Shown: one piece after another, positions 4,521-24,898 of the stretch
How the letters are laid out: each line of letters starts with the position of its first letter
Position numbering within the stretch: the stretch's first letter is position 1
IMG/VR virus record: IMGVR_UViG_3300024520_003753
Span: 1-25,745 of that record
Origin: a virus
Length of the DNA: 25,745 nucleotides
Direction: 5' to 3' (one strand)
Made by a program: the position numbers and the translations under genes
The notes under the pieces: generated by a model
The model's input: only the letters and a program-made list of their open reading frames with translations
Database searches by the model: none
What the model was told of the DNA's origin: nothing

Positions 4521-4542
4521 AATCTAAGGAGGACAAAATAAG

Positions 4543-5499
4543 ATGGCACAGAAATTTTTCACTTACGGGCCAGATAATGTAAACACGCTACTGACTACGA
4601 CTCAATCATCGTATGCTACAACGGATTTGGTTGACCAGTTTTTCAACCAGACTCCGTTCTGGAAAAAGATGCGTGAGAACGCAAGGATGATGGATGGAGG
4701 AGCAAGTATACTTGTTCAGCTGTTGACAGACCAGAACAGTACGACTACTGCGTATGACGGGTATGATACACTTGATACCACTGCACAGGAAGGGATGACT
4801 TCTGCACAGGCAAAATGGAAGAATTATGCGACTTCGATCTCTATTTCAGGGTCAGAGGAACGGCAGAATTCAGGACAGGGTAAACTCATTAGTTTGCTTG
4901 AAGCAAAGAATCGGCAGGGATTACTCAGCCAGAAACGTAAGTTAACAGCTGATCTTTTTGCTGCTTCAGTAGGTTCAAAGAACCTTGAATCGCTTGTGAC
5001 CATGATAGACGCAACTTCGACGATTCAGGAGATCAACAGTACGACTTCAAGTTTCTGGCAGTCAACTGCTACTACTGGCGGTTCGTTTGCCGCACAGGGA
5101 CTGTCGGACATGCGTACTAACTGGACAACCATTCAGAAGATTACTCCTGAAGGTGATATTGACGTAATCTTGACCACAGATACTGTGTTTAACTTCTACG
5201 AAGGGTCACTGACCCCTCAGACGAGATATACGCAGGGTGGGAACTTTGATGGTGCTCCTACGGGCTTGAAGTTCAAGACTGCGAACGTGTTCTTCGATTC
5301 TCAGTGTAACTCAGGTGTGATGTACATGTTCCCGTCAGCGAACCTGTTTTTGGTAATCAATTCCAATGCAGATTTCATGACCACGCCTTTTGTGAAACCG
5401 AGCAATCAGGATGCGAGAGTAAGCCAGCTTATCACGATGGTACAGCTTGTGACCAATGCAAGACGGAAGCTGACGAAAATCGCAAGCATTACTGCGTAG
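4543..5499 (+). CDS. Major capsid protein
   Basis: The 318-residue product is very probably the HK97-fold coat protein. It follows the scaffold with a strong AAGGAGG site, and its composition fits: Thr/Ser/Asn-rich, few Cys, and an N-terminal segment ending in a TPFWKKM motif often seen in coat proteins of this type. A Thr-rich loop (about residues 64-85) could be the E-loop. There is no N-terminal prodomain or protease gene nearby. The coat forms the icosahedral shell; the small proteins encoded right after it are candidates for its decoration. The assignment rests on position and overall sequence character, without a single decisive motif. Confidence 0.9.
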   Translation: MAQKFFTYGPDNVNTLLTTTQSSYATTDLVDQFFNQTPFWKKMRENARMMDGGASILVQLLTDQNSTTTAYDGYDTLDTTAQEGMTSAQAKWKNYATSISISGSEERQNSGQGKLISLLEAKNRQGLLSQKRKLTADLFAASVGSKNLESLVTMIDATSTIQEINSTTSSFWQSTATTGGSFAAQGLSDMRTNWTTIQKITPEGDIDVILTTDTVFNFYEGSLTPQTRYTQGGNFDGAPTGLKFKTANVFFDSQCNSGVMYMFPSANLFLVINSNADFMTTPFVKPSNQDARVSQLITMVQLVTNARRKLTKIASITA

Positions 5500-5508
5500 G
5501 AGGTTAAA

Positions 5509-5778
5509 ATGGCAGCAAAAACACCAGACTCAATAACTCGTGAAAGCTGTGGGGATTTAATCAAGTTCACCGCAGTATTTACCACGAATGATATAGACGA
5601 TAATGACACGTGGGCATCAGGAATCCGTAGTGCGATTGATTGGGATGTACATACGTCAATAGACGGCCCCCAAGATTGCACTATAGACGACTATGATAAT
5701 GAGACAGGAATATTCACTTTTGCTTCAGCATCAAGTCAGACAGCACGGGTTTGTGTATGGGCGAAAGGTAGTTACTAG
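5509..5778 (+). CDS. Tandem small head protein, copy 1 of 3
   Basis: The 89-residue product is the first of three adjacent paralogs. The shared frame includes a start with TPDSIT or similar, IDDND near residue 28, a WD[VF] segment, the central GPQD motif (residues 53-56), a YDN-type turn, then TFAS and a C-terminal W/F-x-K-x-Y. The pattern suggests a small beta-sandwich. It follows the coat gene with TAGGAGG, so it should be made in large amounts. A capsid decoration or cement protein is the simplest reading, but no known family is recognised. This copy is closest to copy 3. Confidence 0.8.
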   Translation: MAAKTPDSITRESCGDLIKFTAVFTTNDIDDNDTWASGIRSAIDWDVHTSIDGPQDCTIDDYDNETGIFTFASASSQTARVCVWAKGSY

Positions 5779-5786
5779 GAGGGTAT

Positions 5787-6044
5787 ATGGCAACATTACG
5801 AACACCAACATTATCGGTACACAATATCGGAAGTCTCAAGAAGGTTATTGCGACATTCGCAGATATTGATGACAATGATACAGTGGTGTATCCCAAAAGC
5901 GGACAATCTTGGGATGTTCATCATTCGATTGATGGCCCTCAAGATACGTCTGTAGACAACTACGCACGTGGCACGGGTACAATGACGTTCAGTTCAGATG
6001 CAAACAAAACTGGTCGACTGAACACATTTTGCAAAGACTACTAA
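5787..6044 (+). CDS. Tandem small head protein, copy 2 of 3 (most diverged)
   Basis: The 85-residue paralog keeps the IDDND, SWDVH, SIDGPQD and MTFSS segments of its neighbours but has lost the short W-x-SG-[IR] segment found in copies 1 and 3. It differs most at its N- and C-termini, ending FCKDY where copy 3 ends WCKAY. It has its own TAGGAGGG site. The divergence suggests an old duplication, with this copy occupying a different site or role. A decoration role is inferred from position only. Confidence 0.8.
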   Translation: MATLRTPTLSVHNIGSLKKVIATFADIDDNDTVVYPKSGQSWDVHHSIDGPQDTSVDNYARGTGTMTFSSDANKTGRLNTFCKDY

Positions 6045-6054
6045 GGAGGTTACT

Positions 6055-6321
6055 ATGCCAGAAAAGACACCAGACAATGTGACTGTTGAAAGTGCAGGTA
6101 GCCTTCGCATGGTTATTGCGACTTATGAGACAGCGAACATTGATGATGACGACTTCTGGACTTCAGGGATAAAATCTGCGACAGACTGGGATTTTGAACC
6201 TTCCACTGAAGGCCCACAAGACGTTACTGTAGACGCTTATGATAAATCAAACGGTAGATTTACCTTTGCTAGTGCTGCTAATCAGACAGGTAGATTTGTC
6301 GTGTGGTGTAAAGCATATTAG
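6055..6321 (+). CDS. Tandem small head protein, copy 3 of 3
   Basis: The 88-residue paralog matches copy 1 along nearly its whole length: EKTPDN opposite AKTPDS, IDDDDFWTSGIKSA opposite IDDNDTWASGIRSA, and then GPQD and FTFASAA. It starts after TAAGGAGG. Residues that vary between the copies cluster in the stretch after the GPQD motif and at the N-terminus, which is what would be expected if the core is structural and the outer surface varies. Likely an abundant capsid surface protein. Confidence 0.8.
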   Translation: MPEKTPDNVTVESAGSLRMVIATYETANIDDDDFWTSGIKSATDWDFEPSTEGPQDVTVDAYDKSNGRFTFASAANQTGRFVVWCKAY

Positions 6322-6363: not shown

Positions 6364-6831
6364 ATGTTACTTAAACAGTTAAACAGAGATGATGCGGAGA
6401 AAATATTTGTAAGCGTACAGAACACTTCAGGAGTGACCGTTTCAGTTGGTCAGTTTGTCTGCTATGACTGGCAGAACAACGCTTCTGTAGGAGTTGCTGC
6501 GACTAAGCCTGTGACCAGTAATTTAGGTCTGTTTTGCGGTGTAAACGTAGGACAGGGTGGACAGAGTGGCGATTATAAAGACCTTGGCACAGATTCGTTT
6601 GGATTGATTCAATGCTGGGGGATTATGAACTCTGTAGCGTACCATGTCGGTGCGGCTTCGCTGTCAGCAGCGGGTATGTATCTTGTACCCACGACTGCTC
6701 AGTGGTCGGGCCAGACAGGTGCGTTGGATGTCGTAGCGGCTTCAGCACTGTTATATACGAGGGGAGCTTTCCTGCTTACCAACGATATTTCAGGGCCAGG
6801 CTATGCAAAGGCATTTGTACGAGCGATATAA
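6364..6831 (+). CDS. Probable capsid decoration or minor head protein
   Basis: The 155-residue product is rich in Gly, Ala, Ser, Thr and Val, with regular beta-type alternation and no signal peptide or catalytic motif. Its place at the end of the capsid block, its strong TAGGAGG site and its composition suggest a virion surface protein, perhaps a trimeric or pentameric decoration protein. It shows no clear similarity to the three tandem paralogs upstream. It is the last gene before a GC-rich hairpin and the enzyme block. Confidence 0.6.
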   Translation: MLLKQLNRDDAEKIFVSVQNTSGVTVSVGQFVCYDWQNNASVGVAATKPVTSNLGLFCGVNVGQGGQSGDYKDLGTDSFGLIQCWGIMNSVAYHVGAASLSAAGMYLVPTTAQWSGQTGALDVVAASALLYTRGAFLLTNDISGPGYAKAFVRAI

Positions 6832-6835
6832 CTTT

Positions 6836-6867
6836 TTGGGGGGAAGGGGTAAAACTCTTCCCCTTAA
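6836..6867 (+). terminator. GC-rich hairpin at the end of the capsid block
   Basis: TTGGGGGGAAG (6836-6846) pairs with CTTCCCCTTAA (6857-6867): seven strong pairs plus two G-U and two A-U pairs, around a 10-base loop. It lies in the only sizeable untranslated gap next to the capsid genes. No T-run follows, so it is not a textbook intrinsic terminator. It could be a leaky terminator, an RNA-stability or processing hairpin that raises capsid mRNA relative to the enzyme genes downstream. Confidence 0.4.
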
Positions 6868-6872
6868 TCTGT

Positions 6873-6876
6873 GAGG
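6873..6876 (+). promoter_or_regulatory. Shine-Dalgarno of the small zinc-ribbon gene
   Basis: GAGG sits four bases before the ATG at 6881. It supports the 67-residue zinc-ribbon frame over the longer GTG start (6871) of the overlapping glycosyltransferase frame, which has no site of its own. Confidence 0.45.
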
Positions 6877-6880
6877 CAAA

Positions 6881-7084
6881 ATGAGCATAATAAAAGACGC
6901 AGTATTCAGATGTCAAAGCTGTGGGAGGCTAACGGGGTCATGGGAAATAGTAAGTGGGAAGAAGTGTGCAGGCCACAAACTCAGACTGACGGACAGGGTA
7001 TCATTTATAGAGGGCGTAACGATCCTCGTATCGTGGCTCAAGCACAAGAGTTTGCAAAAGAGTGGAAAGACAAAACAAAAGTAA
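6881..7084 (+). CDS. Small zinc-ribbon protein overlapping the next gene
   Basis: The 67-residue frame encodes C11-x2-C14-x14-C29-x2-H32, a likely zinc ribbon, after a short start with KDAVFR. Small proteins of this layout (a Cys pair, an aromatic stretch, a second Cys pair or Cys-His and a Trp-containing tail) are common in environmental phages with unknown function. The last 12 or so residues (KHKSLQKSGKTKQK) are low-complexity and look like read-out of the other frame. It overlaps the following glycosyltransferase frame by up to about 145 bases. If both are real, the overlap is unusually long for this genome, where other overlaps are mostly 1-25 bases. A frameshift or a later glycosyltransferase start would explain it. 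Confidence 0.6.
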   Translation: MSIIKDAVFRCQSCGRLTGSWEIVSGKKCAGHKLRLTDRVSFIEGVTILVSWLKHKSLQKSGKTKQK

Positions 7085-7725
7085 TTATATGTGAGCCGAC
7101 AATAGGAAACATTAATTATTTGTGCCACGAAGCAACGGTAGATTTTGTAAAACATTGTAAAGAGTATGAACAGCGGTCAGAATACAAGTTTTTCAAAACG
7201 ACATTAGGAAGACTTATGATTGCTTATGCAAGAGAGAAGTTTGCAGAATTTGCGGTAGATGGCGGGTTTGACTACATAATCTTCATGGATGATGACCATA
7301 TTGTTCCGTCAGACTTATTTGAACGATTGCAGTCACATCTTGATAAATACGATATTGTAGCCCCTTTGTGTTTACAGAGATCACCGCCACACAACCCAGT
7401 GATATATAAGGAAGGAGAAAGAATAATACAAGGGATAAAGTATAGAGAGAACAATTTTCATACTAAGTGGCACAAAGGTGATCTAGTGACAGATGCTGAT
7501 GCAATAGGATTCGGATTTGCGATAATCAAGGTAGACTTGTTCAAACGAGTTCCTAAACCTTGGTTTTTCTTTATGGACCCAGTAGGTGAAGATATAGCGT
7601 TCTGTATGAAAGCAAAGCCTCATGGATGCAAAATACTGGTAGACACAAGTGTAGAATCACCACATTTGGGCGATCCACCAATTATAACATGGAGTGATTA
7701 TGAACGAGAAAAAGACCGCGATTGA
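6940..7725 (+). CDS. GT-A-fold glycosyltransferase (family 2-like)
   Basis: This probably transfers a sugar from a nucleotide donor in the cytoplasm. Numbering from the ATG at 6940 (261 residues), the core opens with the beta-strand KVIICEP near 47-53 and carries the metal-binding MDDDH at 116-120 inside YIIFMDDDHIVPSDLF. A late GEDIAFC supplies the acidic base expected in GT2 enzymes, and SPHLG near the end supplies a His ligand. No membrane helix is seen. The start is uncertain: the frame is open from a GTG at 6871, and 6940 has GGGAGG 11 bases upstream, which is long spacing. Starts at GTG 6964 or 7033 are also possible. The 5' part overlaps the zinc-ribbon gene. Acceptor unknown. Confidence 0.8.
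   Translation: MGNSKWEEVCRPQTQTDGQGIIYRGRNDPRIVAQAQEFAKEWKDKTKVIICEPTIGNINYLCHEATVDFVKHCKEYEQRSEYKFFKTTLGRLMIAYAREKFAEFAVDGGFDYIIFMDDDHIVPSDLFERLQSHLDKYDIVAPLCLQRSPPHNPVIYKEGERIIQGIKYRENNFHTKWHKGDLVTDADAIGFGFAIIKVDLFKRVPKPWFFFMDPVGEDIAFCMKAKPHGCKILVDTSVESPHLGDPPIITWSDYEREKDRD
7691..7694 (+). promoter_or_regulatory. Shine-Dalgarno that sets the start at 7700
   Basis: GGAG is five bases from the ATG at 7700, and a GTG at 7694 (the longer frame) overlaps the site itself, so the ATG is chosen. It lies inside the upstream gene, giving a 26-base overlap. Confidence 0.55.
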
Positions 7726-8464
7726 CGTAGTAATGCCGACATGGGAAAATGAACGTATGGCTACGGTAGCGAAACAGACTATCACGCAGAATACGTCGTT
7801 ACCGATTAGGTTCTACAAAGACGAGCAGAAGGTCACGAATAAAGGGTGGATGTGGTACTGCAACGAGGGATTGAAAGAGTCGTTGGACAACTATGATTCT
7901 GAGTATGTTCTTTTGACGAATGACGATATACAGGTAGGCCCCATGACTGATTGGGCTATACAGATGACGATGATTATGGACAAGTTCAAAGATATAGGAG
8001 CTGTAGGCCCGTTGACGAACAGAGCATGTGGGTGGTCGGTGCTTAATGAGCAGAACTGTTTAAAAGGCAATATAGACTTCTTCAAAGTACCGTACATAAG
8101 TTTTTTCTTCATTCTGTTGAGGAAAGAGGCTATTAAGAAAGTAGGGTACTTGGATGAGAACTTGCCTGGTGGTGACGATTTAGACTTGTCGTTCAGACTG
8201 ATAGACGCAGGGTATTCGGTAGCGATAACTCCGAAGGTGTATGTGAACCATCTGTATGCTCAGACAGGTAAACGAATATATGGTAGCTATTGGGACAGTC
8301 CTGTAATGTCGGAGAAAATACATAAAGCCTTATGTGACAAGCACGGATTTAAACGAGTGATTTGTGCGTTCACAGGCTACGAGGAGAAGAAAGATGAGAA
8401 AACTGATAGTGGTAGCATGTCTGTTGATAGCGACAGGAGTATGGGCGAAAAACAAAAGGTCTGA
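7700..8464 (+). CDS. Glycosyltransferase family 2 (rhamnosyltransferase-like)
   Basis: The 254-residue GT-A enzyme has the nucleotide-sugar fold: start strand IDVVMPTWEN (8-17), a DxD-type TNDD at 73-76 for metal and diphosphate, an AVGPLTN segment, and the acceptor-side GGDDLDLSFRLIDAGY (157-172), in which the second acidic pair is the likely catalytic base. H184 follows. This arrangement is typical of GT2 enzymes that build surface polysaccharide. The last about 24 residues are Ser/Asp-rich and are encoded by DNA that also encodes the next gene's signal peptide in another frame, so they are probably unconstrained. It overlaps the previous glycosyltransferase by 26 bases; the two may act in sequence. 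Confidence 0.88.
   Translation: MNEKKTAIDVVMPTWENERMATVAKQTITQNTSLPIRFYKDEQKVTNKGWMWYCNEGLKESLDNYDSEYVLLTNDDIQVGPMTDWAIQMTMIMDKFKDIGAVGPLTNRACGWSVLNEQNCLKGNIDFFKVPYISFFFILLRKEAIKKVGYLDENLPGGDDLDLSFRLIDAGYSVAITPKVYVNHLYAQTGKRIYGSYWDSPVMSEKIHKALCDKHGFKRVICAFTGYEEKKDEKTDSGSMSVDSDRSMGEKQKV
8381..8386 (+). promoter_or_regulatory. Shine-Dalgarno that sets the start at 8394
   Basis: GAGGAG lies seven bases before the ATG at 8394. This start places a signal peptide at the very N-terminus, while the longer GTG start at 8364 would put ten extra basic residues before it. Confidence 0.6.
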
Positions 8465-8771
8465 TTATACTGCGGTAGAAGAGCCTGTAGGTGTAGCACT
8501 TTCTAATGATGCGTGGACAGCAATACCAGTGGTAAATAATCGAAGAATAGCAGTTAAACTAGATTTACCTGCGGGTGAGACAGATTATGTATCGCTTCTT
8601 TGGTCGCCAGACTCAAGCTCTCCTTCAGCAGGAACGACTCTTGGTGACAAGTATATTGAAGCAAACCCGCCTTGGATATTGCCGATAAACAAGAATGTGT
8701 ATTTATACGGTCTAGCTTCAGGCGATGGTGCTGTGACTATCAATGCACAGGACTTATTGGGGGAATACTAA
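8394..8771 (+). CDS. Exported small beta protein with signal peptide
   Basis: The 125-residue product begins with a classic Sec signal: MRKL, then the hydrophobic IVVACLLIATGVWA, with a likely cleavage after WAK or VWA near residue 19. The mature part reads as a small beta-sandwich: a VGVALSNDAW strand, a NNRRIAVKL strand, then VYLYG and TINA. The same order (Val-rich strand, Arg-containing turn, aliphatic strand, VY segment, final strand) appears in the 92-residue protein at 23554, which lacks a signal. Virion proteins are not normally secreted, so the signal peptide is unusual. It could be a cell-envelope protein that blocks superinfection, or a glycan-binding one. It overlaps the upstream gene by 71 bases and shares one base with the next gene. 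Confidence 0.75.
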   Translation: MRKLIVVACLLIATGVWAKNKRSDYTAVEEPVGVALSNDAWTAIPVVNNRRIAVKLDLPAGETDYVSLLWSPDSSSPSAGTTLGDKYIEANPPWILPINKNVYLYGLASGDGAVTINAQDLLGEY

Positions 8772-9385
8772 TGAATAAAATAATTGGAGGGATTGCGATA
8801 TTCTTTTGTTTAGCTTTTGCGTTTCATGGAATAAAAACAATACATGCGGTACAAAATGCGTCTATAGCAGCAGGAAATGTACTTGATGACGGGGATGGCA
8901 CATATTCATTTGATGGTGCAGTGACTATGGATAGCACTCTTGATGTTGCTGGTGATGTAACAGTAGTAGATGAAGTAACTACTACGGGGACTATACCAAG
9001 ACATTATTCTTTGGCAGATGCAGGCGAAACTCCACGATTAACATTAGGACAAGGTGCTGTAGATGGGTCAGCGAATAATAATTTTGGTGAACTGATTATT
9101 GATGGTGATGGTGCAAGTGGCGGTGGTACAGATGATGTTGTGTTACGGACATACTATGCTTCTGCGTATCATACAATAGTTTCAAATCCTATCGGTGAAG
9201 AAGGATTGGTTTTTGGTGGGTATGCACAATTAAAATCTACGACAACTGCGGGTATGGAAGGAACAACTCCGACAGCTATTGGTCAAGCATATATATTAAG
9301 TACAGGGCTAGGTATTTTTGTATCTTCGGGAATTAATCAAGGTGAATTTGGATATATTGCATTAGGAAATATGCCTGCACCGTAA
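8771..9385 (+). CDS. Exported or membrane-anchored fibre-like protein
   Basis: The 204-residue product starts with MNKIIGG, then a hydrophobic stretch (about 5-26) fitting a signal peptide or an N-terminal anchor. The mature part has repeated short Asp/Gly/Thr/Val units (VTMDSTLDVAGDVTVVDEV, about 50-68) of the kind that form the stalks of trimeric phage fibres, and then a Gly/Ser/Thr-rich domain with many predicted strands. The TAATG overlap with the previous exported protein implies joint expression. I do not recognise a family. Possible roles include an envelope-displayed fibre fragment, a decoy or a receptor-modifying protein. Its fibre-like sequence and export signal do not fit a simple structural role. 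Confidence 0.7.
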   Translation: MNKIIGGIAIFFCLAFAFHGIKTIHAVQNASIAAGNVLDDGDGTYSFDGAVTMDSTLDVAGDVTVVDEVTTTGTIPRHYSLADAGETPRLTLGQGAVDGSANNNFGELIIDGDGASGGGTDDVVLRTYYASAYHTIVSNPIGEEGLVFGGYAQLKSTTTAGMEGTTPTAIGQAYILSTGLGIFVSSGINQGEFGYIALGNMPAP

Positions 9386-9396
9386 TAGGAGGGACT

Positions 9397-9579
9397 ATGA
9401 AAATCATAGATTTTTTTTTTACGAAGCTTTTGAGCAAGAAATTCATAGCATTTCTCGCAGCATGTTGGTTCTTTAAATTAGGCATTTTGAATCAGCAAGG
9501 ATGGCTCATAATCACAGGAGTATATGTAGGGCTTGAAACAAGCTTGAATATAGCAGAGAAGTTAAAGGGGAAAGGATGA
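9397..9579 (+). CDS. Holin-like small membrane protein
   Basis: The 60-residue product has a short, charged N-terminus (KIIDFFFTKLLSKK), a hydrophobic segment of about 16 residues (FIAFLAACWFFKLGIL), a polar turn and a second one (GWLIITGVYVGLETSL), then a Lys-rich tail (AEKLKGKG). This two-helix layout is that of small class II or III holins or of holin-like proteins carried by many phages. TAGGAGGG precedes the ATG. A ten-T run at 9411-9420 encodes the Phe triplet. The lipoprotein gene follows with an ATGA overlap. No endolysin is seen in the window, so the lysis role is a guess. Confidence 0.6.
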   Translation: MKIIDFFFTKLLSKKFIAFLAACWFFKLGILNQQGWLIITGVYVGLETSLNIAEKLKGKG

Positions 9580-9782
9580 ATTTCAGACACGACATGATTT
9601 TGATAGGGACAGTAATTCTGCTGACAGCGATTGCGTTTTTTCTATCAGGGTGTGCAAGTCCAAAGGTTCACATGGTATATGTAGGATATGGTGAAAAGGC
9701 GGTGATATTTGTTCCGAGCAAGACTAAAGGCAAGTGGGTTAATTTTGAGGTGGAAGCACCTGACTATGAGGAGGTTGAATGA
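9576..9782 (+). CDS. Small lipoprotein (possible o-spanin-like)
   Basis: The 68-residue product has a hydrophobic signal followed by a lipobox LSGC (Cys near residue 26), so it is very likely lipidated and placed in a bacterial membrane. The mature part is only about 43 residues, with a beta-like middle and an acidic end (EAPDYEEVE). Residues S and P follow the lipidated Cys closely. Coming right after a holin-like gene, it recalls the Rz1 outer-membrane subunit of spanins. However, Rz1 proteins are usually Pro-rich and paired with an Rz, and neither is seen here, so this is a weak analogy. It starts in an ATGA overlap. Confidence 0.65.
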   Translation: MNFRHDMILIGTVILLTAIAFFLSGCASPKVHMVYVGYGEKAVIFVPSKTKGKWVNFEVEAPDYEEVE

Positions 9783-10624
9783 AGGTCTTAATTACGTTTG
9801 ATGACAGGGTACGACAAGATTCAACGGCCATTTACTTTTATCACGCATTTTGCAAGATAGCAGATGTCGTGAGGGCGTACAACGAGGAGCTGCCTTCGAT
9901 TGATGGCAGTAACTTTGATTTATGTATCAAGATTGACGATGGGTTATTGAGCCACAGATTTCCGAAGAAGTTCAGTGAAGTAACCAAGACTGCGTATTAC
10001 TGCATAGACTCACATCTTGATTTGAAGAACAGGATGGAGTTAGCTGAAGAAGGGAATATTGAGTACATCTTTACTGCTCAGAAACCAGCAAGTCAGCAGA
10101 AATGGCATACAGACAAAGTAAAATGGGTTCCTTTGGGCTGTGATCCGAACTTCCACATGGTCAAAGGCAAACGCACGAAATTGTACGATGTGGGGTTTGT
10201 AGGTAACGTCAATCCTCACTGGCAGATGTGTAGATTGGAGAGGTTAGATAAGTTGTTTAAAGCGTTCCCAAACTATTACTTCGGGGCAGTTTTCTTCAAA
10301 GATATGGCAGAGAAGTTTTCTGAATGCAAGATAGTGTTTAATTCTTCTGTTTTGGATGATATAAACATGCGGCATTTCGAGTCTATGGCATCAGGCAGTA
10401 TGCTTTTGACAAACAAGCTGAACTGGCAGGGGATGTTTACACCTGACAAACATTTTGTTGAGTATGATGGTGATGAGGATATGATACGGAAAGCAAAGTA
10501 TTATATTGACCATGAGGTTGAAAGAGAACGAATTGCTAATCACGGACAGATGGAAGTATTATCGAAACATAAGTATATTGACAGAGTTGAGGAGATAATA
10601 AAAACATGCTTCACACGGAAATAA
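9779..10624 (+). CDS. GT-B-like glycosyltransferase (CgeB/Glyco_trans_1_2 type)
   Basis: The 281-residue product resembles short GT-B glycosyltransferases of the group seen with CgeB-like proteins. The N-terminal half has MKVLITFDD and a YDIC-type linker. The C-terminal half has a WVPLGCDP segment (117-123), the FVGN turn (140-143) and the donor-site signature INMRHFESMASGSMLLTN (195-212), in which Glu201 and the Gly206 loop bind the nucleotide sugar. No membrane segment is present. GAGGAGG and an ATGA overlap couple it to the lipoprotein gene. The donor and acceptor cannot be read from the sequence. This type is common in polysaccharide and spore-coat glycan clusters. Confidence 0.82.
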   Translation: MKVLITFDDRVRQDSTAIYFYHAFCKIADVVRAYNEELPSIDGSNFDLCIKIDDGLLSHRFPKKFSEVTKTAYYCIDSHLDLKNRMELAEEGNIEYIFTAQKPASQQKWHTDKVKWVPLGCDPNFHMVKGKRTKLYDVGFVGNVNPHWQMCRLERLDKLFKAFPNYYFGAVFFKDMAEKFSECKIVFNSSVLDDINMRHFESMASGSMLLTNKLNWQGMFTPDKHFVEYDGDEDMIRKAKYYIDHEVERERIANHGQMEVLSKHKYIDRVEEIIKTCFTRK

Positions 10625-11262
10625 TACAGAAGATCATAGATAAGAAAGGGTACAAGTCGTATCTTGAGATAGGGCTTGATAGGGGTCTTAATTGGTCACA
10701 GATACAATGTGCTCGGAAACTCGGCTGTGATCCTATGGTACTTATCCCTGCGATGAAGTATGGGGAAACCGTGAGGTACAAGAACCAGATTATCCACATG
10801 AAAACAAGCGATGATTTTTTCTACTATTTCGGGTATGGTCAACCGATAGACCTTGTATTCATAGATGGAGAACACACGTTTGAACAATCGTTGAAAGATT
10901 TCAACAATGCACAGAAAGTTTTGAGTGATAACGGGTTGATTATAATGCACGATACCATGCCTACATCAGAGATGGAGTCTATGATATATCAGGACTTTCT
11001 AACAAAATATCGTGACTATCAAGGTGCATGGATGGGTGATGTCTGGAAAACAGTCTATTTCCTGAAACAGCGTAAGAACAACGAATATTTTACGTTAGAT
11101 ATTCCGTGTGGATTTTCTGTATTTAAGAAGAACAAGGGTGATGCACAGAAACCAGAATGTGATATAAGCAAACTAGCGTTCAAGTTTTTTGAGGAGAACA
11201 AGAAAGATGTCTTGAACTTGAAACCGATGCCGTATTTAGGAGAGTTTTTAAATGCCCGTTAA
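10606..11262 (+). CDS. Class I SAM methyltransferase (Methyltransf_24-like)
   Basis: The 218-residue product has SAM-binding motif I as LEIGLDRGLNW (20-30), the acidic IDLVFIDGEHTFEQ (81-94) with its DGEH metal/SAM pocket, and a following strand IIMHDTMP (112-119). This set matches the small methyltransferases found in O-antigen and antibiotic glycan clusters, which often O-methylate a sugar. The start overlaps the glycosyltransferase before it by 19 bases, with GAGGAG 11 bases upstream. In context it probably methylates a sugar or a glycosylated product made by the neighbouring enzymes; the substrate is inferred only. Confidence 0.85.
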   Translation: MLHTEIIQKIIDKKGYKSYLEIGLDRGLNWSQIQCARKLGCDPMVLIPAMKYGETVRYKNQIIHMKTSDDFFYYFGYGQPIDLVFIDGEHTFEQSLKDFNNAQKVLSDNGLIIMHDTMPTSEMESMIYQDFLTKYRDYQGAWMGDVWKTVYFLKQRKNNEYFTLDIPCGFSVFKKNKGDAQKPECDISKLAFKFFEENKKDVLNLKPMPYLGEFLNAR

Positions 11263-12469
11263 GACACTGTTTTTATCAGCTCCTTGGTACAACGAGAATG
11301 AATATATGATTAAATGTGGGTCTCGCTGGCCTTGGATAGTAAAAGCACCGAAACCACCGCCTGAGACGAGAGGGTTGTATAACCCGTTTCCGTTCTTCAT
11401 GATGTACGCAGCAGCGTATCTTTCGGTATCGAGGGTTGCGGATGTGTTCGTATACGACGCAGGTGCGAGGAATCATACCTATAAGATGTTCTATGACGTA
11501 GTAGGCGAGGTTGATCCTGAGATAGTTATTATGGAAGTCACGACTCCTTCTATTGGGAAAGACTTGGATATAGCAAGAGAGTTGAAGAAGAAGGGGATAG
11601 AGATAGCGTTATCAGGCACACATGCGAGTGTGTTTGCGGATGAACTGATAAAGTTGCCATATATAGACTATATCTTGAAAGGTGAGTACGAGGTATCGAG
11701 CTACGAGATGTGTCTGATGAGAACAAAGAAGGTTTACGAGTCGCACAGGATAGAACATTTGGACTCTTTGCCATCACCGTATCTTACGACTGACGATAGT
11801 ATCTACTTATATACAGACACTTTCGGGTTCAACTTCTCTATGCCACAGTTACAGGTATGGACAAGCCGAGGATGTCCTTCAAGATGCAGTTTTTGTAGTT
11901 GGAACCACACAATGACGAACCACAATTATCGGCAGAGATCAGTGAAGTCTATTGGTAAAGAGTTGACTGCATCTATACGAAAATGGAAGTTTAAGAGTGT
12001 TTTGTTTGACGACGACACGTTCAACGTGGGTGACAAGAGAGTGCAGGAGATGTGTGATTTCATGGACAAAGTAGATATTAACTGGCAGGCGATGGTCAAG
12101 ATAGACGCATGTTCTAAACACGCTTTTGGCATAATGCGTCATTCGGGATGTGACGGGTTAAAGATAGGCATAGAGACGTTTTCTCAGAGGGGACTAGATG
12201 CACTCAACAAAGGTGGAAATGCTGATCGTAATTTTGAAACTTGCGATTATTTACTTGATTTAGGATATAACGTCTTTTTGTCGTGTATAGGCAACATACC
12301 AGGCGAGACGGATGAGGATAGAGATATAACGAAGAAGAAACTGTCATATCTGTGTAGCAGGGGTGCGAAGTATCAGTACCCTAATTTAATGTCATTACCA
12401 GGGACAAAACTGTATGATTCGGGAACATTACCCAAGAAAGAAACATGGAAAGAATACGGACATTACTAA
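11252..12469 (+). CDS. B12-binding-type radical SAM enzyme 1
   Basis: The 405-residue product has a two-domain layout. An N-terminal cobalamin-binding-like fold (about 45-165) carries the LSGTHASVFADELI segment typical of this class and lacks the DxHxxG motif, as many do. The radical SAM barrel follows, with C208-x3-C212-x2-C215 (in SRGCPSRCSFCSW) binding the 4Fe-4S cluster. IETF and GIETFSQRGL-type strands follow at the usual spacing. Such enzymes often use methylcobalamin to methylate unactivated carbon; others do oxidative or ring-forming chemistry. TTAGGAG precedes the ATG by nine bases. It overlaps the next gene by 56 bases. Confidence 0.88.
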   Translation: MPVKTLFLSAPWYNENEYMIKCGSRWPWIVKAPKPPPETRGLYNPFPFFMMYAAAYLSVSRVADVFVYDAGARNHTYKMFYDVVGEVDPEIVIMEVTTPSIGKDLDIARELKKKGIEIALSGTHASVFADELIKLPYIDYILKGEYEVSSYEMCLMRTKKVYESHRIEHLDSLPSPYLTTDDSIYLYTDTFGFNFSMPQLQVWTSRGCPSRCSFCSWNHTMTNHNYRQRSVKSIGKELTASIRKWKFKSVLFDDDTFNVGDKRVQEMCDFMDKVDINWQAMVKIDACSKHAFGIMRHSGCDGLKIGIETFSQRGLDALNKGGNADRNFETCDYLLDLGYNVFLSCIGNIPGETDEDRDITKKKLSYLCSRGAKYQYPNLMSLPGTKLYDSGTLPKKETWKEYGHY

Positions 12470-13655
12470 AAGGAAGATACTTCTAATATCTCCGTTTTCG
12501 GCAGGATTAGACGATCCTATCGCATATCCACCACTCGGGCTTTTGTACCTGGCTTCAAATATGAATACGAAGTTTATTCCTGATATACTGATAATGGAGA
12601 GCGAGACCTTCGTTCAGTACGATTACGAGGTCTACGGAATAAGCGTACATTCTGTAGGTGTAGTCAAATTTGTATCTAATTTGATAGCTGAAATCCACAA
12701 GAAGAACCCTAAAGCCACGTTTATAGTAGGGGGGGCTGGTTCGGGGTTGATCCCGAGGGCAACGTATATTATTCATTTGATGGGTGAAGGCGAGAAGTTT
12801 TTTGACGTAGATACGAAGAATTTAGACAACATAAACTTCCCTGCAAGGTATTTGGTAGATTCGAGGTTTATAGTCAAAAAAGACGGTTCTCACCACACCC
12901 CGCAACCGTCAACCACGATGATAGCGACTAGAGGATGTCCCTATAGTTGTGCCTTTTGTGACAGAGAGACACATGGCAGGAAGTTAAGGAAACGGTCTTT
13001 TGAGAATATAGTGCGAGAAATCAAACAGTTAAAGCTAATGTACGGGATTAAATGGATACGGTTCGTAGACGATTGTATTACGGTGGACAAGAAGTGGTTC
13101 ATCAATTTGTGCCTAGAACTCAAGGATTTAGACATTAAATGGACTGTGTTGAGTCGTTCAGACTGTGTAGATTTGAAGCTATTAAAGCTAATGTATAGGT
13201 GTGGATGTAGGGAGATATTCTTCGGATTCGAGTCTGGTAGCCAGAAAATACTCAATTTGATGCGAAAACACAACACGGTTCAGCAAAATATAGAGGTTAT
13301 AAAACTATGCCGTGAGGCAAAAATTATCTCCTGTGCGTACATGATGTTCGGATTCCCAGGAGAAGACGCTGAAACGGTACGTGAGACCGTGAGTTTCTTG
13401 CAGAAAGCGAAGCCAGACAAGAGCAGGCTGACGACTTTCATCCCGATTCCTGGAAGTGATGTTTGGAACTATCCTGAGAAGTACGGGATTAAGATAAGAG
13501 AGAACTACGATGATTACTGGTGTTTTGACAAACACGATTTTGCATGTATTTATAGAGACGTTTCGACATCAAAGATGCGAGAATTAAGAGATAAACTGAT
13601 GCAATTCTATGTAGATGCTGGTTATAAAAAGAACTGGCAAAAGGCGGCAGTATGA
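12414..13655 (+). CDS. B12-binding-type radical SAM enzyme 2
   Basis: The 413-residue product is the second enzyme of this class in a row. The N-terminal Rossmann-like part (about 20-160) opens with KILLISPFSAGLDDP and YPPLGLLYLAS, the usual start of B12-binding radical SAM proteins, and includes the IVGGAGS loop. The cluster motif is C175-x3-C179-x2-C182 in TRGCPYSCAFCDR. The later FFGFESGSQ, YMMFGFPGED and FIPIPGSD segments match radical SAM barrel strands that contact SAM. The first ATG lies inside the upstream gene without a clear ribosome site, so translation may be coupled. It is a paralog of enzyme 1 only at family level; the two are not close copies, so they probably do different steps. 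Confidence 0.87.
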   Translation: MIREHYPRKKHGKNTDITKRKILLISPFSAGLDDPIAYPPLGLLYLASNMNTKFIPDILIMESETFVQYDYEVYGISVHSVGVVKFVSNLIAEIHKKNPKATFIVGGAGSGLIPRATYIIHLMGEGEKFFDVDTKNLDNINFPARYLVDSRFIVKKDGSHHTPQPSTTMIATRGCPYSCAFCDRETHGRKLRKRSFENIVREIKQLKLMYGIKWIRFVDDCITVDKKWFINLCLELKDLDIKWTVLSRSDCVDLKLLKLMYRCGCREIFFGFESGSQKILNLMRKHNTVQQNIEVIKLCREAKIISCAYMMFGFPGEDAETVRETVSFLQKAKPDKSRLTTFIPIPGSDVWNYPEKYGIKIRENYDDYWCFDKHDFACIYRDVSTSKMRELRDKLMQFYVDAGYKKNWQKAAV

Positions 13656-14647
13656 TTAACCCAATTATAGCGAGTTTAAAGCGAGAATGTGAAGTTTTAA
13701 GGAAGGGAGGGATCCCTAAACCGAGGATGGCGATACTCACTCCGACCTACAAGTGTAACCAGAACTGTTACTATTGTTTCTTCAAGAAGAAGAATAACGG
13801 AGATATGATAGATACAGACAAGTTCTGCACGTTCATCAAACAGATTGCGGACTTTGGGATTGAGAGTATAGAATACTGCGGAGGCGGCGAGTCACTACTT
13901 CTGCCGAATATTGAGCAGGTATTTAAGTACGCACACTCGCTTGGGTTAAGACAAGGGTTACTGACTAACGGTGTCTTATTTGACGGGGTTATAGCACAGA
14001 CATTTTTGAAGTATGGCACGTATGTCCGGTTCTCTATAGACACTATAGACAAGATAAAGTACAAAAAGATCAGAGGTGCTGATGATTGCGATAGAGTCAA
14101 GATGAACATTGAGAAAGCTATTGCGATCAAACAGAGACACGACCATATGTGCCAGATATCTCTGAAGGTCGGGTATGCAAAAGAACTAGAAATGGAGGAC
14201 ATACAAGGTGTATTTGATTTTGCTTTCAATAAACGTATTTACAGCATTCAACTGAAGAACGTATGGGATGAAAATGGAAATTATTATAACAATGATTTAC
14301 AGAAGCAGGACATCTATAAGATCATAAAGACGCATGGTACGAGGTTCAACAAGAAGATCGGTGCGAAGAAGAAGATGCGAGAACGGTGTTGGATAAGTCC
14401 TATACAAGTAACCATAGACGCATACGGAGACGTATACTTATGTTGCTACTTTCAAGGTAGGGAAGACTCGCACAAGATAGGTAATCTGCACAAAAGTAAT
14501 CTACAAGAGTTGTGGGGTTCAGAAACACATCTGAAAGCGTTGAGAAGTACGAGGATTAATGATTGCCAGAAACATGACTGTAGGATGATTAGATATATGG
14601 ATCAGTGGAGACAGCAGGAAAAGTCTAACGACATTTATTTCGTCTAG
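13652..14647 (+). CDS. Radical SAM enzyme with SPASM-type C-terminus
   Basis: The 331-residue product has C35-x3-C39-x2-C42 (in TYKCNQNCYYCF), the Gly-rich SAM motif GGGES (77-81) and a TNG strand. A Cys-rich C-terminal region follows (C246, C264, C265, C305, C310) with the CWISPIQ and GNLHKSNLQELW pattern of SPASM domains, which hold extra Fe-S clusters. SPASM enzymes often modify peptides (thioether bonds, epimerisation) or oxidise sugar and alcohol groups, as in anaerobic sulfatase maturation. In a glycan cluster, dehydrogenation of a sugar is possible; in a phage head operon, peptide modification is too. An ATGA overlap couples it to enzyme 2. Confidence 0.87.
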   Translation: MINPIIASLKRECEVLRKGGIPKPRMAILTPTYKCNQNCYYCFFKKKNNGDMIDTDKFCTFIKQIADFGIESIEYCGGGESLLLPNIEQVFKYAHSLGLRQGLLTNGVLFDGVIAQTFLKYGTYVRFSIDTIDKIKYKKIRGADDCDRVKMNIEKAIAIKQRHDHMCQISLKVGYAKELEMEDIQGVFDFAFNKRIYSIQLKNVWDENGNYYNNDLQKQDIYKIIKTHGTRFNKKIGAKKKMRERCWISPIQVTIDAYGDVYLCCYFQGREDSHKIGNLHKSNLQELWGSETHLKALRSTRINDCQKHDCRMIRYMDQWRQQEKSNDIYFV

Positions 14648-14654
14648 GAGAATT

Positions 14655-15539
14655 ATGCGTATAGCTTTTATAGTTCCTTTTACCAATACTTATAATTTAT
14701 CTCATACTGGTGTATGGGGGGATTGTATACTTGTAGAAGCGATAGCAAAATCGTTGAACAAGAAAGGTATTCAGTCAGGAGTCCACAGCGTACCTGATTT
14801 TAAGACAGAGAAACCGTATGATATAGCTATCCACACAAACGATTTGGTACATACGATGGAATTTTCGAATATAGCGAAGAAACATTATTTGTGGATACAG
14901 GGGATAAAAGCAGGTATTGTCACTGATGGTCTGGCAGATTTGTTAGACCCCGAACAGATATATGAGGGTGCAAAACACAGGTACGAGAAAGTCTTCACGT
15001 TATCCAAGACTTTGGCAGAGAGGAAGAATATCCCGTTTGTACCTTGCGGTGTAGACATGGAATCGTACCATCCTATAGAACGAGAGAAAAGGTACGAGAT
15101 AACGTTTCTTGGCAACTTGATTAAACCACAGAGATTGAACGAACAGTACATGCGACCTATGGGAAGATTTGATTATTATTTAGCAGGCGGTGTGTTTGGG
15201 AAAGTCAGTCATGAACGAGGAATAGAGATTGTTGCTCAGTCAGAGATTAATTTACATTTCGGGTATCCGCACACGTTACCTTGGAACATGGTAATTGGTC
15301 GACCTTTACAGAACTCAGCATGTCGAGGATTTACAATGATGGATGAAGTACCGTACATGATGGAAGTTTACAAAGACGCTATGGCATTTACTAAAGGAGG
15401 CGAGGATGAAATAGAGAAGATACATTATTATCTATCTCACCAGAAAGAACGAGAAGATATGGCACACAGGGCGTATGAGATAACAAAACAGAGATTTGAC
15501 AGTAACATCGTGGCAGAGAAAATCTTGGAGGTATTATGA
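14655..15539 (+). CDS. GT-B-like glycosyltransferase
   Basis: The 294-residue product starts MRIAFIVPFTNTYNLSHTGVWGD, a GT-B N-terminal start with a Gly loop. It has the linker PCGVDMESYHP (130-140), common in GT1/GT4 enzymes, then the FLGN strand (151-154), a conserved NLHFGYPHTLPW stretch and a C-terminal helical tail. It differs clearly from the GT-B gene at 9779 but shares the short layout. It has TAGGAGAATT before its ATG and an ATGA overlap with the zinc-site protein after it. Soluble, with no membrane segment seen. It probably adds a sugar to the same product as the other enzymes in the block. Confidence 0.78.
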   Translation: MRIAFIVPFTNTYNLSHTGVWGDCILVEAIAKSLNKKGIQSGVHSVPDFKTEKPYDIAIHTNDLVHTMEFSNIAKKHYLWIQGIKAGIVTDGLADLLDPEQIYEGAKHRYEKVFTLSKTLAERKNIPFVPCGVDMESYHPIEREKRYEITFLGNLIKPQRLNEQYMRPMGRFDYYLAGGVFGKVSHERGIEIVAQSEINLHFGYPHTLPWNMVIGRPLQNSACRGFTMMDEVPYMMEVYKDAMAFTKGGEDEIEKIHYYLSHQKEREDMAHRAYEITKQRFDSNIVAEKILEVL

Positions 15540-16219
15540 ACGAAAAAAGGTATTTGATTCTAGCAGGTGGTTTATGGGGAGTAAGCAAACAGTTGTTCAA
15601 TGGCAGACAGATAGACCCTGAAGCAGGTCAGGAGAAGATGTGTGATTATGTTATAGCAATCAAAGGTCTACCTGACAACATGTTTCAGCCTGAAGAACTT
15701 AACAGACACAGAGTATGGAAATGCGAGCATTGTAACAGACCTATTTCAGAAAGCGAGATGGAAGGGAAATGGGGATGTTTTGCACATAAGAAAAGTTTCA
15801 CAGAGATTGTCAGAGACAAGTGGCGTGTTGACGTATTTGAAAAATACAGTATCCCAAGAAAGAAATGGATGAATCCGTGTTACAGAGTATGGTTGAACAA
15901 CGAGCAGGGGATGGAAAAGTTCCGTGAGATATGGAGGTATGTAGACAGGAACTTTCCTTCAAACAAGACGATGCCGATGCCGAAGGTTGTGGGTAACAAG
16001 ATACAGTGGTTGGTAGAAGAATCAGAAGTCCCGTTCATAGACTTATCAGAACAGGAAGTACCTGATAAAGTAGAACCCGCACCTGAAGTTAGGGTTGAGA
16101 AGAAAGAGGTTAAATCATATATCTGTGAGATATGTGATAAAGAATGGGATAACAAGAATTCGTTGAGAATCCACAAGATGCACTGTTTGAAGAGAAAGAA
16201 AGTAAAAGTGGAGGTATAA
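15536..16219 (+). CDS. Two-zinc-site protein with C-terminal C2HC finger
   Basis: The 227-residue product has two probable zinc sites. The first, C63-x2-C66-x14-C81-x2-H84, has the same spacing as the small zinc ribbon at 6881. The second, C197-x2-C200-x12-H213-x3-C217 (in YICEICDKEW and RIHKMHC), is a C2HC finger like eukaryotic C2H2 fingers, followed by a Lys-rich tail. A Pro/Glu-rich linker (about 170-193) joins them. Fingers of this type occur in some bacterial and phage proteins and can bind DNA or protein. It closes the enzyme block, next to the tail adaptor. It may be a regulator or a tail-associated protein; I do not recognise a family. Confidence 0.7.
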   Translation: MNEKRYLILAGGLWGVSKQLFNGRQIDPEAGQEKMCDYVIAIKGLPDNMFQPEELNRHRVWKCEHCNRPISESEMEGKWGCFAHKKSFTEIVRDKWRVDVFEKYSIPRKKWMNPCYRVWLNNEQGMEKFREIWRYVDRNFPSNKTMPMPKVVGNKIQWLVEESEVPFIDLSEQEVPDKVEPAPEVRVEKKEVKSYICEICDKEWDNKNSLRIHKMHCLKRKKVKVEV

Positions 16220-16228
16220 GGAGGTACA

Positions 16229-17137
16229 ATGCAATTCTCTACTGCGAGAGCTGAAGTAGCGGCTCAGTTGAGCTTAGACCAGACGCAGAGTGATACAACG
16301 ACATTAATCAACAGGTGGCTAAATTTATCGCAGTTAGATATAGCAAGTGCATGGAATTGGACATGGTTAAAGGACAGAGATGTTATCACTACAGAACTTG
16401 ATCTCACCACAGGAACGGTTGACGCTACAGCTGCGTCTGCAACAATTACGTTTAGTTCAGCTCCGGCGGCGAGCCAGACAGATAGGTTTATCCAGTTCAG
16501 CTCGGCAGATGATTGGTACAAGATCACAGCTCATACTGCGGGAGTTGCGACTGCTACGATCAGCCCTGTGTACGCACAGACAAGCAACCTTACCGCAGGC
16601 ACGTTCACAGTCCGCACGTTCTTCTACTCGTTAGCTACGACTACGGAGTACGTGTATACAGCAAGAACGTCTCAGAACCCTGCATACTTACCAGTAATCT
16701 CAGCAAGTCTTGTAGACCAATACGCACCGTTCTGGACAGATACAGGTAGCCCAAAGAAGATAATTCTCTGGGGTAAAGATTCAAGCGGGAACGTACAATT
16801 CTCACCATTCCCTTGGCCGGATGAGATACTGCTTATAGAGTTCAGAGTCTACAAGAAACCTTCTGATTTATCTGCTGATTCAGACACCCCGTTGTTTCCA
16901 ACAAGATTTGATTCTATGTGGATAGACGGTGCGTTAGCCTATGGATACAGATACTTGAACGATGACAGAGCTGATAAAACACGTAGAGACTTTTTGTTGA
17001 AAGTTGATAATTTGAAAGACAGAGATAACCCAGGGTTAACAAGCAACAGAATACTAAAGTCTATAGATGAAGGAAGTCATCAAGGACATCCGTTCATACC
17101 ATTTCCTTCAAACTTTGGGGAGGTGTGGCGTAGATGA
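16229..17137 (+). CDS. Tail adaptor (head completion) protein, P22 gp4-like by position
   Basis: The 302-residue product starts with helices (MQFSTARAEVAAQLSLDQ, LINRWLNLSQLDIASAWNW) and continues as a beta-rich middle (residues about 50-190). It ends with helices and basic/acidic pairs (DDRADKTRRDFLLKVDNLKDRDNP). The layout fits the adaptor ring that sits under the portal. Its place right before the beta-propeller tail protein, with an ATGA overlap, supports this. TAAGGAGG precedes the ATG. Identity is by context and pattern, so it could instead be another neck protein. Confidence 0.7.
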   Translation: MQFSTARAEVAAQLSLDQTQSDTTTLINRWLNLSQLDIASAWNWTWLKDRDVITTELDLTTGTVDATAASATITFSSAPAASQTDRFIQFSSADDWYKITAHTAGVATATISPVYAQTSNLTAGTFTVRTFFYSLATTTEYVYTARTSQNPAYLPVISASLVDQYAPFWTDTGSPKKIILWGKDSSGNVQFSPFPWPDEILLIEFRVYKKPSDLSADSDTPLFPTRFDSMWIDGALAYGYRYLNDDRADKTRRDFLLKVDNLKDRDNPGLTSNRILKSIDEGSHQGHPFIPFPSNFGEVWRR

Positions 17138-23832: not shown

Positions 23833-24020
23833 CAGTAGAAATCAAACGACCAGGATTCACTAAAGCACAATTAAACGCTTTATATCTGTTATTAGATACA
23901 AGCAACGATCCTCTTACAGGAGAGCTAGTAATTACCCCGTCTTCTGGCAGCACCGCACTGAGGGCAGACAAGAATATAGTGCTTAAAAGCGGGTTTAAGC
24001 TCATAATGGATGGTGCTTAA
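23829..24020 (+). CDS. 63-residue protein of unknown function
   Basis: The start is the ATG of an ATGA overlap with the upstream gene; the frame opens further upstream at 23760, but that stretch lies wholly inside the beta-sandwich gene and is not supported. The product has a helix (KAQLNALYLLLDTS) then a strand-rich part (TGELVITPSSGSTALRADKNIVLKSGFKLIMDG). The latter resembles short beta repeats of fibre shafts. A fibre-base or chaperone role is a guess. Its stop overlaps the next ATG (TAATG), giving tight coupling to the glycosyltransferase that follows. Confidence 0.6.
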   Translation: MTVEIKRPGFTKAQLNALYLLLDTSNDPLTGELVITPSSGSTALRADKNIVLKSGFKLIMDGA

Positions 24021-24898
24021 TGCCTATCGTGAGTGTGGTAATTCCTGCGAACAACGAGAAGTACCTTCAGCAGACTATTAGCTCGATATTAGGCTCGTGT
24101 GCCCGTGAGATAGAGATTATAGCGGTACTGGATGGCTACTGGCCTGACCCTCCGATACAGGATGATAAGCGGGTTACGTTGATCCATCACTCAGAGTCTA
24201 GGGGACAGAGACAGGCAATCAATGAGGCTGCGAAGATAGCGAGGGGTAAGTATATTCTAAAGACTGACGCTCATTCTATGTTTGACCAAGGATTTGATGT
24301 GAAGTTAGCAGAGGATTGCGAGTATGACTGGACAGTGATCCCGACTATGATAAACTTGGATGCAGAGAAATGGCAACCCAAGTGGGGAAAGAAGACAGAT
24401 TTCATGTGGATTAGGTCTCCTGAAGCCAAGGATAAACCATTCAGACACTGTTACTGGGATGGTAGATGTGCGAAGGAGTACCCAGAATTGTATAGACTAC
24501 ATAAGAAGATGGACTACCGTAAAGGTGACATCTGTGACGTAATGACAGGGCAGGGAGCTTGTTTTTTCATGCACTTGGATAGGTTCTGGGAATTGGGTGG
24601 AATGGATGAAAAACATGGTAGCTGGGGAGCTATGGGAGTAGAGGTAGCCTTGAAAGCATGGTTAAGTGGTGGCTCACATAAAGTAAATAAGAAGACATGG
24701 TTCTCTCACTGGTTCAGAGGTGGTGGTGGGCCAGGATTCCCTTACAAGATAAGCGGTAGTGACCAGCATAAGGCAAGAAAGTATTCAATAGATTTCTGGA
24801 TGAACAACAGATGGGCGTTACAAACCAGACCTATCAAATGGCTTGTGGATAAGTTCGCACCATTACCGACTTGGGGTGACACATGCTCTCAATCATAA
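24020..24898 (+). CDS. GT2 glycosyltransferase with DxH motif (pp-GalNAcT-like layout)
   Basis: The 292-residue GT-A enzyme opens PIVSVVIPANNEKYLQQTI (2-20). It has the metal-binding DAH at 83-85 in LKTDAHSMF, and a later GSWGAMGVEVALKAWLSGG, the order of motifs (DxH, then Gly-Trp-Gly with Glu) seen in polypeptide GalNAc-transferase-type GT2 enzymes. No lectin domain follows. The TAATG start and the 16-base overlap with the next gene tie it to its paralog. Donor and acceptor are unknown, but this kind of fold can glycosylate protein as well as glycan. Short His and Trp-rich stretches near the end may line the acceptor site. Confidence 0.83.
   Translation: MPIVSVVIPANNEKYLQQTISSILGSCAREIEIIAVLDGYWPDPPIQDDKRVTLIHHSESRGQRQAINEAAKIARGKYILKTDAHSMFDQGFDVKLAEDCEYDWTVIPTMINLDAEKWQPKWGKKTDFMWIRSPEAKDKPFRHCYWDGRCAKEYPELYRLHKKMDYRKGDICDVMTGQGACFFMHLDRFWELGGMDEKHGSWGAMGVEVALKAWLSGGSHKVNKKTWFSHWFRGGGGPGFPYKISGSDQHKARKYSIDFWMNNRWALQTRPIKWLVDKFAPLPTWGDTCSQS

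Follow-up and report, generated by a model that had tools for sequence, protein, structure and literature searches.

The enzyme block between the capsid and tail genes

The virus contig IMGVR_UViG_3300024520_003753, a fragment of 25,745 bases analyzed here at its full length (the window), encodes a block of glycosyltransferase (GT), methyltransferase (MT), and radical SAM (rSAM) genes between its head and tail genes. All recognized genes of the window lie on the + strand. It runs from a partial TerL through portal, scaffold, major capsid protein (MCP), three tandem small paralogues, and a probable decoration or head gene (deco4) into the enzyme block; downstream of the block, a tail adaptor and a stabilization-type protein precede a fibre that ends in an endosialidase-type chaperone, and then come three large proteins that are candidates for internal virion proteins, two short open reading frames (ORFs), and two GT2 genes. 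Pfam and NCBIfam searches identified four GTs, a class I MT, and three rSAM enzymes on one strand between the last capsid or decoration gene and the tail adaptor, and the reading frames and Pfam matches bore out an initial annotation that had listed these enzymes at 6940-15539, in one direction and with overlaps. Most junctions of the block enzyme genes are overlaps of 4 to 56 bases and the others are gaps of at most 9 bases, except at 8394-9782, where four short ORFs break what had been described as a single run; the one strand and the overlaps of that description hold, and a ninth gene (15536-16219) is to be added to it.

The block opens with GT2a (6940..7725; ATG at 6940 with GGAGG upstream), a predicted GT-A fold enzyme matching PF00535 (E 1.7e-6), followed by the GT2-like GT2b (7694..8464), for which matches were weak (Pfam E 0.004; TIGR01556 rhamnosyltransferase E 2.7e-6). 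Beyond the four short ORFs lie GT1a (9779..10624; PF13524 E 7e-22), a GT-B type enzyme, and the class I MT (10606..11262; PF13578 E 3e-11). Sugar O-methylation by the MT was considered and is a mere lead: the best PDB sequence match (6g7d) is weak (E 0.005), and the structural model (predicted local distance difference test [pLDDT] score 53) was too poor. Three rSAM enzymes follow, each with a CxxxCxxC motif: rSAM1 (11252..12469; PF04055 E 2e-15) and rSAM2 (12414..13655; PF04055 E 4e-25), both probably of the B12 type, and rSAM3 (13652..14647; PF04055 E 2e-15), which carries a SPASM domain (E 6e-10). The assignment of the first two draws on alignments to B12 rSAM families that fall below those families' cut-offs (HpnJ, E 1e-41, for rSAM1; the PhpK family, E 6e-45, for rSAM2), and the N-terminal B12-binding Pfam family scored 20.9 against a cut-off of 32.1 in rSAM2 (E 3e-4) and gave no match in rSAM1. 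The GT1a paralogue GT1b (14655..15539; PF13524 E 4e-10), also of GT-B type, and a zinc-finger-like protein (15536..16219; weak C2H2 and HNH matches) close the block before the tail adaptor. Two more GT2 genes had been reported at 24020-25647 and are likewise upheld: GT2c (24020..24898; PF00535 E 1e-14) and its paralogue GT2d (24883..25647; PF00535 E 2e-13; E 7e-33 between the two). The intact GTs encoded by the window thus number six with Pfam matches, that of GT2b being weak. Hydropathy revealed no transmembrane segment in any GT, rSAM, or MT protein of the block, in agreement with their earlier description as soluble.

The four ORFs at 8394-9782, between GT2b and GT1a, are of another kind. 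They comprise a short beta-rich protein with a signal peptide, predicted from sequence and hydropathy to be secreted (8394..8771; a variable slot); a probable membrane-anchored beta-rich protein with fibre-like repeats (8771..9385; hydropathy 1.95 at residue 3; no family match); a 60-residue membrane protein, possibly holin-like by its sequence (9397..9579; no family match); and a small, spanin-like lipoprotein with an LSGC lipobox, so assigned from sequence and hydropathy (9576..9782). Parts of a lysis system or surface proteins are both possible roles.

Conservation in a sister phage and its lineage

A scan with the SPASM rSAM enzyme identified a sister phage, L194, whose MCP and tail adaptor are 71% and 65% identical to those of the window. 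Its gene order is MCP, deco4, GT2a, GT2b, GT1a, rSAM1, MT, rSAM2, rSAM3, GT1b, zinc-finger-like gene, and tail adaptor, with seven of the eight enzymes retained in the order of the window. The genes common to the two blocks are 45 to 64% identical (GT1a 51%, rSAM1 52%, rSAM2 64% over 253 residues, rSAM3 60%, GT1b 45%, and the zinc-finger-like protein 50%). The window's MT is the enzyme that was not retained; the L194 methyltransferase belongs to another family and is placed one gene further on. The slot between GT2b and GT1a likewise differs, holding an HNH-type gene and two tandem 104-residue paralogues in place of the four short ORFs. HNH-type genes are inserted in L194 directly upstream of rSAM2 (7850-8333) and at 4091-4531. 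The initial annotation had proposed a search for conserved synteny with head and tail genes, and this is what L194 displays; because the synteny is kept, the block is neither a chance assortment nor an assembly chimera. An overlapping 7.8-kb contig from a different record, the sole match in the MCP scan, is 99.8% identical and represents another copy of the same virus, so that the first 7.7 kb of the window are non-chimeric.

Since synonymous sites between the window and L194 are saturated or nearly so while nonsynonymous divergence (pN) in the enzymes is 0.26 to 0.36, the enzymes are under strong purifying selection; the corresponding values were 0.26 for the tail adaptor and 0.36 for the decoration gene.

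Two further relatives, L011 and L134, have TerL, portal, and MCP in common with the window (and L011 also deco4). In both, GT2a and GT2b form one fused protein encoded directly 3' of the MCP and a decoration-sized gene. In the window, L194, and L011 alike, deco4 sits between MCP and GT2a. In a tree of GT2a sequences, the window, L194, L011, and L134 formed a single clade (support 97/96), which is consistent with the GT at this site having been inherited along with the capsid lineage. In the genome of L134, a 513-residue protein of no known family (L224:3519-5057) is encoded after the GT2a-GT2b fusion and before the tail adaptor.

GT2a resembles a viral glycosyltransferase

The structural model of GT2a was confident (pLDDT 82), and its best solved match was A197 of Sulfolobus turreted icosahedral virus (STIV; PDB 2c0n), with Z 18.7 and a root mean square deviation of 2.5 over 173 of 191 residues; a GT2a sequence profile matched the same protein at E 3e-10. 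The next structural matches were LH3, Mnn9, mimivirus R699, and COLGALT1, of which LH3 and COLGALT1 act in protein glycosylation. Residues D126 and D128, which form a DxD motif, were invariant across 68 sequences. GT2a is therefore modeled as an A197-like GT-A fold enzyme with a metal-binding DxD motif. Matches of GT2a to the designed "Cake" propellers in the PDB were discarded, as they involve residues 27 to 66, outside the GT core, and no stretch passes on its own. STIV has a glycosylated coat protein, and A197, which is essential, is the suspected enzyme (PMC10551542).

This resemblance bears on whether the block might act on DNA instead, with its GTs and rSAM enzymes glycosylating or rearranging modified bases of the packaged genome. 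Phage enzymes of both kinds are known in DNA hypermodification, and this lends the idea some force. GT2a resembles protein- and polysaccharide-acting GTs, however, and the genes are grouped with structural rather than nucleotide-metabolism genes. Thymidylate-synthase-type hydroxymethylase was absent from 12 related records, including the complete circular genome MW202801; the window, though, is only part of a genome, and modified bases could be made by other routes. DNA-glycosylating GTs are cited in PMC12619734. Taken together, DNA as the substrate seems very unlikely.

Related cassettes recur at the capsid-neck junction

More than 500 viral stretches matched the GT2a profile, and gene contexts were counted in the best 80 loci. 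Two genes upstream, a major head protein was encoded in at least 19 of 46 cases; directly downstream, the neighbor encoded a neck or tail protein (phrog_2941) in 31 of 65, both counts being biased by a profile built from MCP-adjacent genes and by the close relationship of many loci. The initial annotation had held that head genes normally lead straight to neck genes. That is so in phage Mx8 and two groundwater podoviruses, to whose MCPs that of the window is related and in which a few small genes, with no enzyme block, link the capsid genes to those for neck and tail; a single GT at the junction is nonetheless common in other phages.

Bacterial and archaeal genome contigs yielded just 13 confirmed GT2a relatives. 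Where the context is clear, the better-scoring ones belong to phage head-tail modules (L179, L182, L183, and L184); examples are a contig from Lachnospiraceae (PF05065 capsid, GT2a, PF24829 connector) and, from Paenibacillus oryzisoli, that of L184 (portal, protease, MCP, decoration protein, two GTs, tape measure). For L180, L181, and L185, no phage context was recognized. L179 and L183 come from contigs binned into metagenome-assembled genomes of Nanoarchaeota and Omnitrophota; phage portal genes adjoin the GT in these contigs, which look viral. The initial annotation had reasoned that an intact block in bacterial polysaccharide loci free of phage genes would argue against the modification pathway it proposed; in such loci, only weak GT2a relatives (E 4e-7 or worse) were found, in Vibrio anguillarum and Gottfriedia.

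MW202801, HK97-type siphoviruses, and soil podoviruses have fuller cassettes of GT, rSAM, and methyltransferase genes at the capsid-neck junction. In MW202801 (ctQWt234), a complete circular groundwater podovirus, the MCP and a small gene are followed by a SPASM rSAM enzyme related to rSAM3, a GT2, PhyH, a methyltransferase, a NodB-like protein, and a GT, and then by neck and stabilization genes. In siphovirus-like, HK97-type contigs (G002/G012), the order is MCP, decoration-sized protein, GT2a, GT2, methyltransferase, B12 rSAM, methyltransferase, and gp6-like connector, and the B12 rSAM protein carries a GT2a-like domain fused at its C terminus. Phage B12 rSAM proteins with such a C-terminal domain were also noted at L097:7224-9197 and L094:2225-4180; the 39.8-kb record from which the latter comes (L094/L095; IMGVR_UViG_3300042731_007292) shares sequence across a GT2 gene at its two ends and so probably represents a complete genome, either circular or circularly permuted. 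Between their scaffold/MCP and neck genes, three soil phages (L118, L122, and L131) encode a double-GT protein, a B12 rSAM enzyme (E ~1e-40 to rSAM2), and an enzyme of the GDP-mannose dehydratase or UDP-glucose dehydrogenase type; in L122, an SU10-type adaptor lies a short distance further downstream. The earlier statement that sugar-nucleotide synthesis genes are missing thus stands for this fragment and not for relatives, which carry them beside the cassette. No relatives of GT1a or GT2c were found in the phage collection.

A single-protein scan of viral contigs with rSAM2 gave no match, and its viral relatives were recovered only with alignments as the query. Among 123 direct neighbor genes of these relatives, the commonest Pfam families were GT2 (18), methyltransferases (at least 11), and nucleoside diphosphate (NDP)-sugar epimerase (9). 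Because rSAM relatives adjoin GTs, methyltransferases, and NDP-sugar enzymes or are fused to a GT2a-like domain, the rSAM enzymes of the block are probably engaged in sugar chemistry. The same neighborhood bears on a peptide or defense role, in which the SPASM and B12 rSAM enzymes would modify a small peptide, as in ribosomally synthesized and post-translationally modified peptide (RiPP) pathways, or represent a viperin. Such a role could draw on the matches of rSAM3 to pVip (E 1e-17) and to RiPP maturases and on the small proteins inside the block, but no precursor-like peptide was recognized and the neighbors are GTs. It is the least likely explanation weighed here. Identification of rSAM3 as a RiPP maturase was rejected on those two grounds, and as a viperin by its score (50.8 bits against a family cut-off of 180) and its SPASM domain, which viperins are not known to carry.

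The junction might also be no more than a permissive insertion site for cargo, whose enzymes would have varied jobs and no common substrate. HNH genes inserted in the same stretch of L194, the variable methyltransferase and small-protein slots, and an RNA hairpin after the capsid genes that is present in cargo-free relatives too (the site thus being older than the cassette) would all fit. Such a site would not account for a cargo strongly skewed, in the phages examined, to GTs, rSAM enzymes, methyltransferases, and sugar enzymes, nor for GT2a-GT2b and rSAM-GT fusions that indicate one pathway, nor for the order of seven enzymes kept between the window and L194 under purifying selection. We regard cargo without a shared substrate as improbable.

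A proposed virion glycosylation pathway

We propose that the block serves to glycosylate a capsid, decoration, or fibre protein, with rSAM and methyl enzymes tailoring the glycan, and we put the probability of this reading at about 0.55. Its expression would go along with that of the late structural genes. In the cytoplasm, GT2a and GT2b might work as a pair, starting and extending a short glycan on such a protein with host nucleotide sugars, and GT1a and GT1b may add further sugars. The two B12-type rSAM enzymes, the SPASM rSAM enzyme, and the MT could then tailor the glycan by C- or O-methylation, epimerization, or oxidation, while GT2c and GT2d might serve a second acceptor near the tail-fibre genes. 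Candidate purposes are stability or an altered surface that evades receptors, predators, or antibodies.

A modification pathway for a virion protein or a surface molecule had been suggested initially, with action on the phage's own capsid or fibre as a hypothesis from co-location. A virion-protein target now draws further support from head and tail synteny, from unrelated phages that carry this kind of cassette at the junction, from gene fusions, and from the fold of GT2a, which is nearest to that of a viral GT suspected of glycosylating its coat protein; from these sequences we infer co-transcription, acceptor, sugar, reaction order, purpose, chemistry, and activity. Several observations weigh against it besides the bias of the junction counts. 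The GT-A fold does not settle the acceptor, because the polymer-acting TarP, SpsA, and WrtF also match GT2a (Z ~13). The rSAM2 gene of L194 (L194:8333-9166) has lost about 120 internal residues in frame, which may reflect a dispensable or degenerating enzyme or else a misassembly. In L134, an rSAM2 relative lies with a GT2, a DegT aminotransferase, and a hexapeptide acyltransferase just upstream of TerL and not after the MCP. Lastly, pelagimyophages carry GT and rSAM cassettes in their host-recognition region, and the authors who described these cassettes interpreted them as modifying host lipopolysaccharide (LPS; PMC7029224).

That interpretation leads to the main rival, a late-infection change of the host surface glycan that would exclude superinfection or free progeny from receptors, the late-operon location reflecting timing only. 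The SpsA, TarP, and WrtF-like folds would suit it as well, as would the four exported or membrane proteins within the block and the NDP-sugar enzymes of the soil relatives. The GT, rSAM, and MT proteins lack transmembrane segments, however, and no flippase, polymerase, or lipid-carrier transferase was seen with the block; the MCP-neck position is held across morphotypes rather than next to fibre or lysis genes, and the better GT2a matches with clear context in genome contigs fall in phage head modules and not in polysaccharide loci. On balance, we consider a host-surface target unlikely, if still to be taken seriously.

Extending virion glycosylation beyond this virus, we tentatively suggest that virion-modification cassettes have a widespread, unrecognized home at the capsid-neck junction of many tailed phages, with an A197-related GT-A family and rSAM and methyl enzymes putting unusual, radically tailored glycans on particles, a proposal that we place somewhat short of even odds. 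There are few demonstrated cases of capsid glycosylation among tailed phages, and sugar-coated shells may be commoner than assumed. A GT signature at the junction, often with more sugar enzymes, would allow glycosylated phages to be predicted from sequence, and the related arrangements in Paenibacillus and Lachnospiraceae genome contigs make tests in culturable hosts feasible. If the proposal is true, rSAM chemistry on virion glycans would constitute new enzymology with a bearing on phage stability, immune recognition, and receptor evasion.

Flanking genes and a hairpin after the capsid genes

The genes on either side of the block include several candidate acceptors. The MCP (4543..5499; phrog_9953 major head protein E 5e-34) is one, as are the three tandem paralogues (5509..6321; E 1e-18 to 1e-30 among them), probable decoration proteins of 85 to 89 residues for which family searches gave no match, and deco4 (6364..6831; 46% identical in L194 and similar in L011). 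In L194, a single unrelated gene of 86 residues replaces the three paralogues after the MCP, so that decoration candidates are swapped and enzymes retained. The downstream flank is the tail adaptor or neck protein (16229..17137; phrog_10775 E 5e-7); as for the MCP and tail protein, PHROG-type family matches upheld the portal and TerL assignments. Immediately 5' of GT2c-GT2d, two overlapping short ORFs (23554-24020) of decoration- or fibre-like sequence echo the small-protein-then-GT-pair arrangement at 6364-8464.

The hairpin (6836..6867; -21.8 kcal/mol, z -4.1) is strong and directly follows the last capsid gene. Hairpins occur at the matching place in L194, L011, L134, MW202801, and G012 and also in relatives that have no cassette, and a cassette-specific role was therefore rejected. 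It looks like a general device that possibly attenuates transcription after highly expressed capsid genes, with the enzymes lying downstream. Searches yielded no Rfam families and no excess of promoters inside the block.

Comparison with known systems

Phage virion glycosylation is already known, and it appears to be the rSAM-rich, position-conserved cassette that is undescribed in the literature searched: a partial search found no published description of rSAM-containing cassettes at the MCP-neck junction, nor any discussion of the MW202801 cassette, whose genes are annotated in the record. In mycobacteriophages (Che8, Corndog, and Myrna; Freeman et al. 2023 as cited in PMC12363180, PMC11256854, and PMC12619734), phage GTs are described as modifying capsid and tail-tube proteins. 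According to the passages of these citing papers, the likeness to the window lies in phage-encoded GTs, with glycosylation measured there and predicted from genes here; the same passages mention neither radical SAM enzymes nor methyltransferases and, for the related cluster F1 mycobacteriophage Maravista, place the GT genes near the genome 3' end and not between MCP and neck. The gtrABC-type modules of lysogenic conversion, which modify O antigen by means of a flippase and membrane GTs beside an integrase, differ from the block, in which no GT has a transmembrane segment; nor was an integrase recognized among the window's ORFs. The pelagimyophage host-recognition cluster (PMC7029224) shares GT and radical SAM genes in late regions, but it adjoins tail fibres, belongs to large myoviruses, and was read in terms of host LPS. 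STIV A197 is, like GT2a, a GT-A enzyme of a virus, and it has been proposed to use host donors in glycosylating the major coat protein; it differs in being the single GT of an archaeal virus, with no tailoring enzymes, and its acceptor, too, is a proposed one. The cassette of MW202801 has PhyH and a NodB-like protein and lacks B12 rSAM and GT2a, but it matches the window in setting a SPASM rSAM enzyme, a GT2, a methyltransferase, and a GT between MCP and neck.

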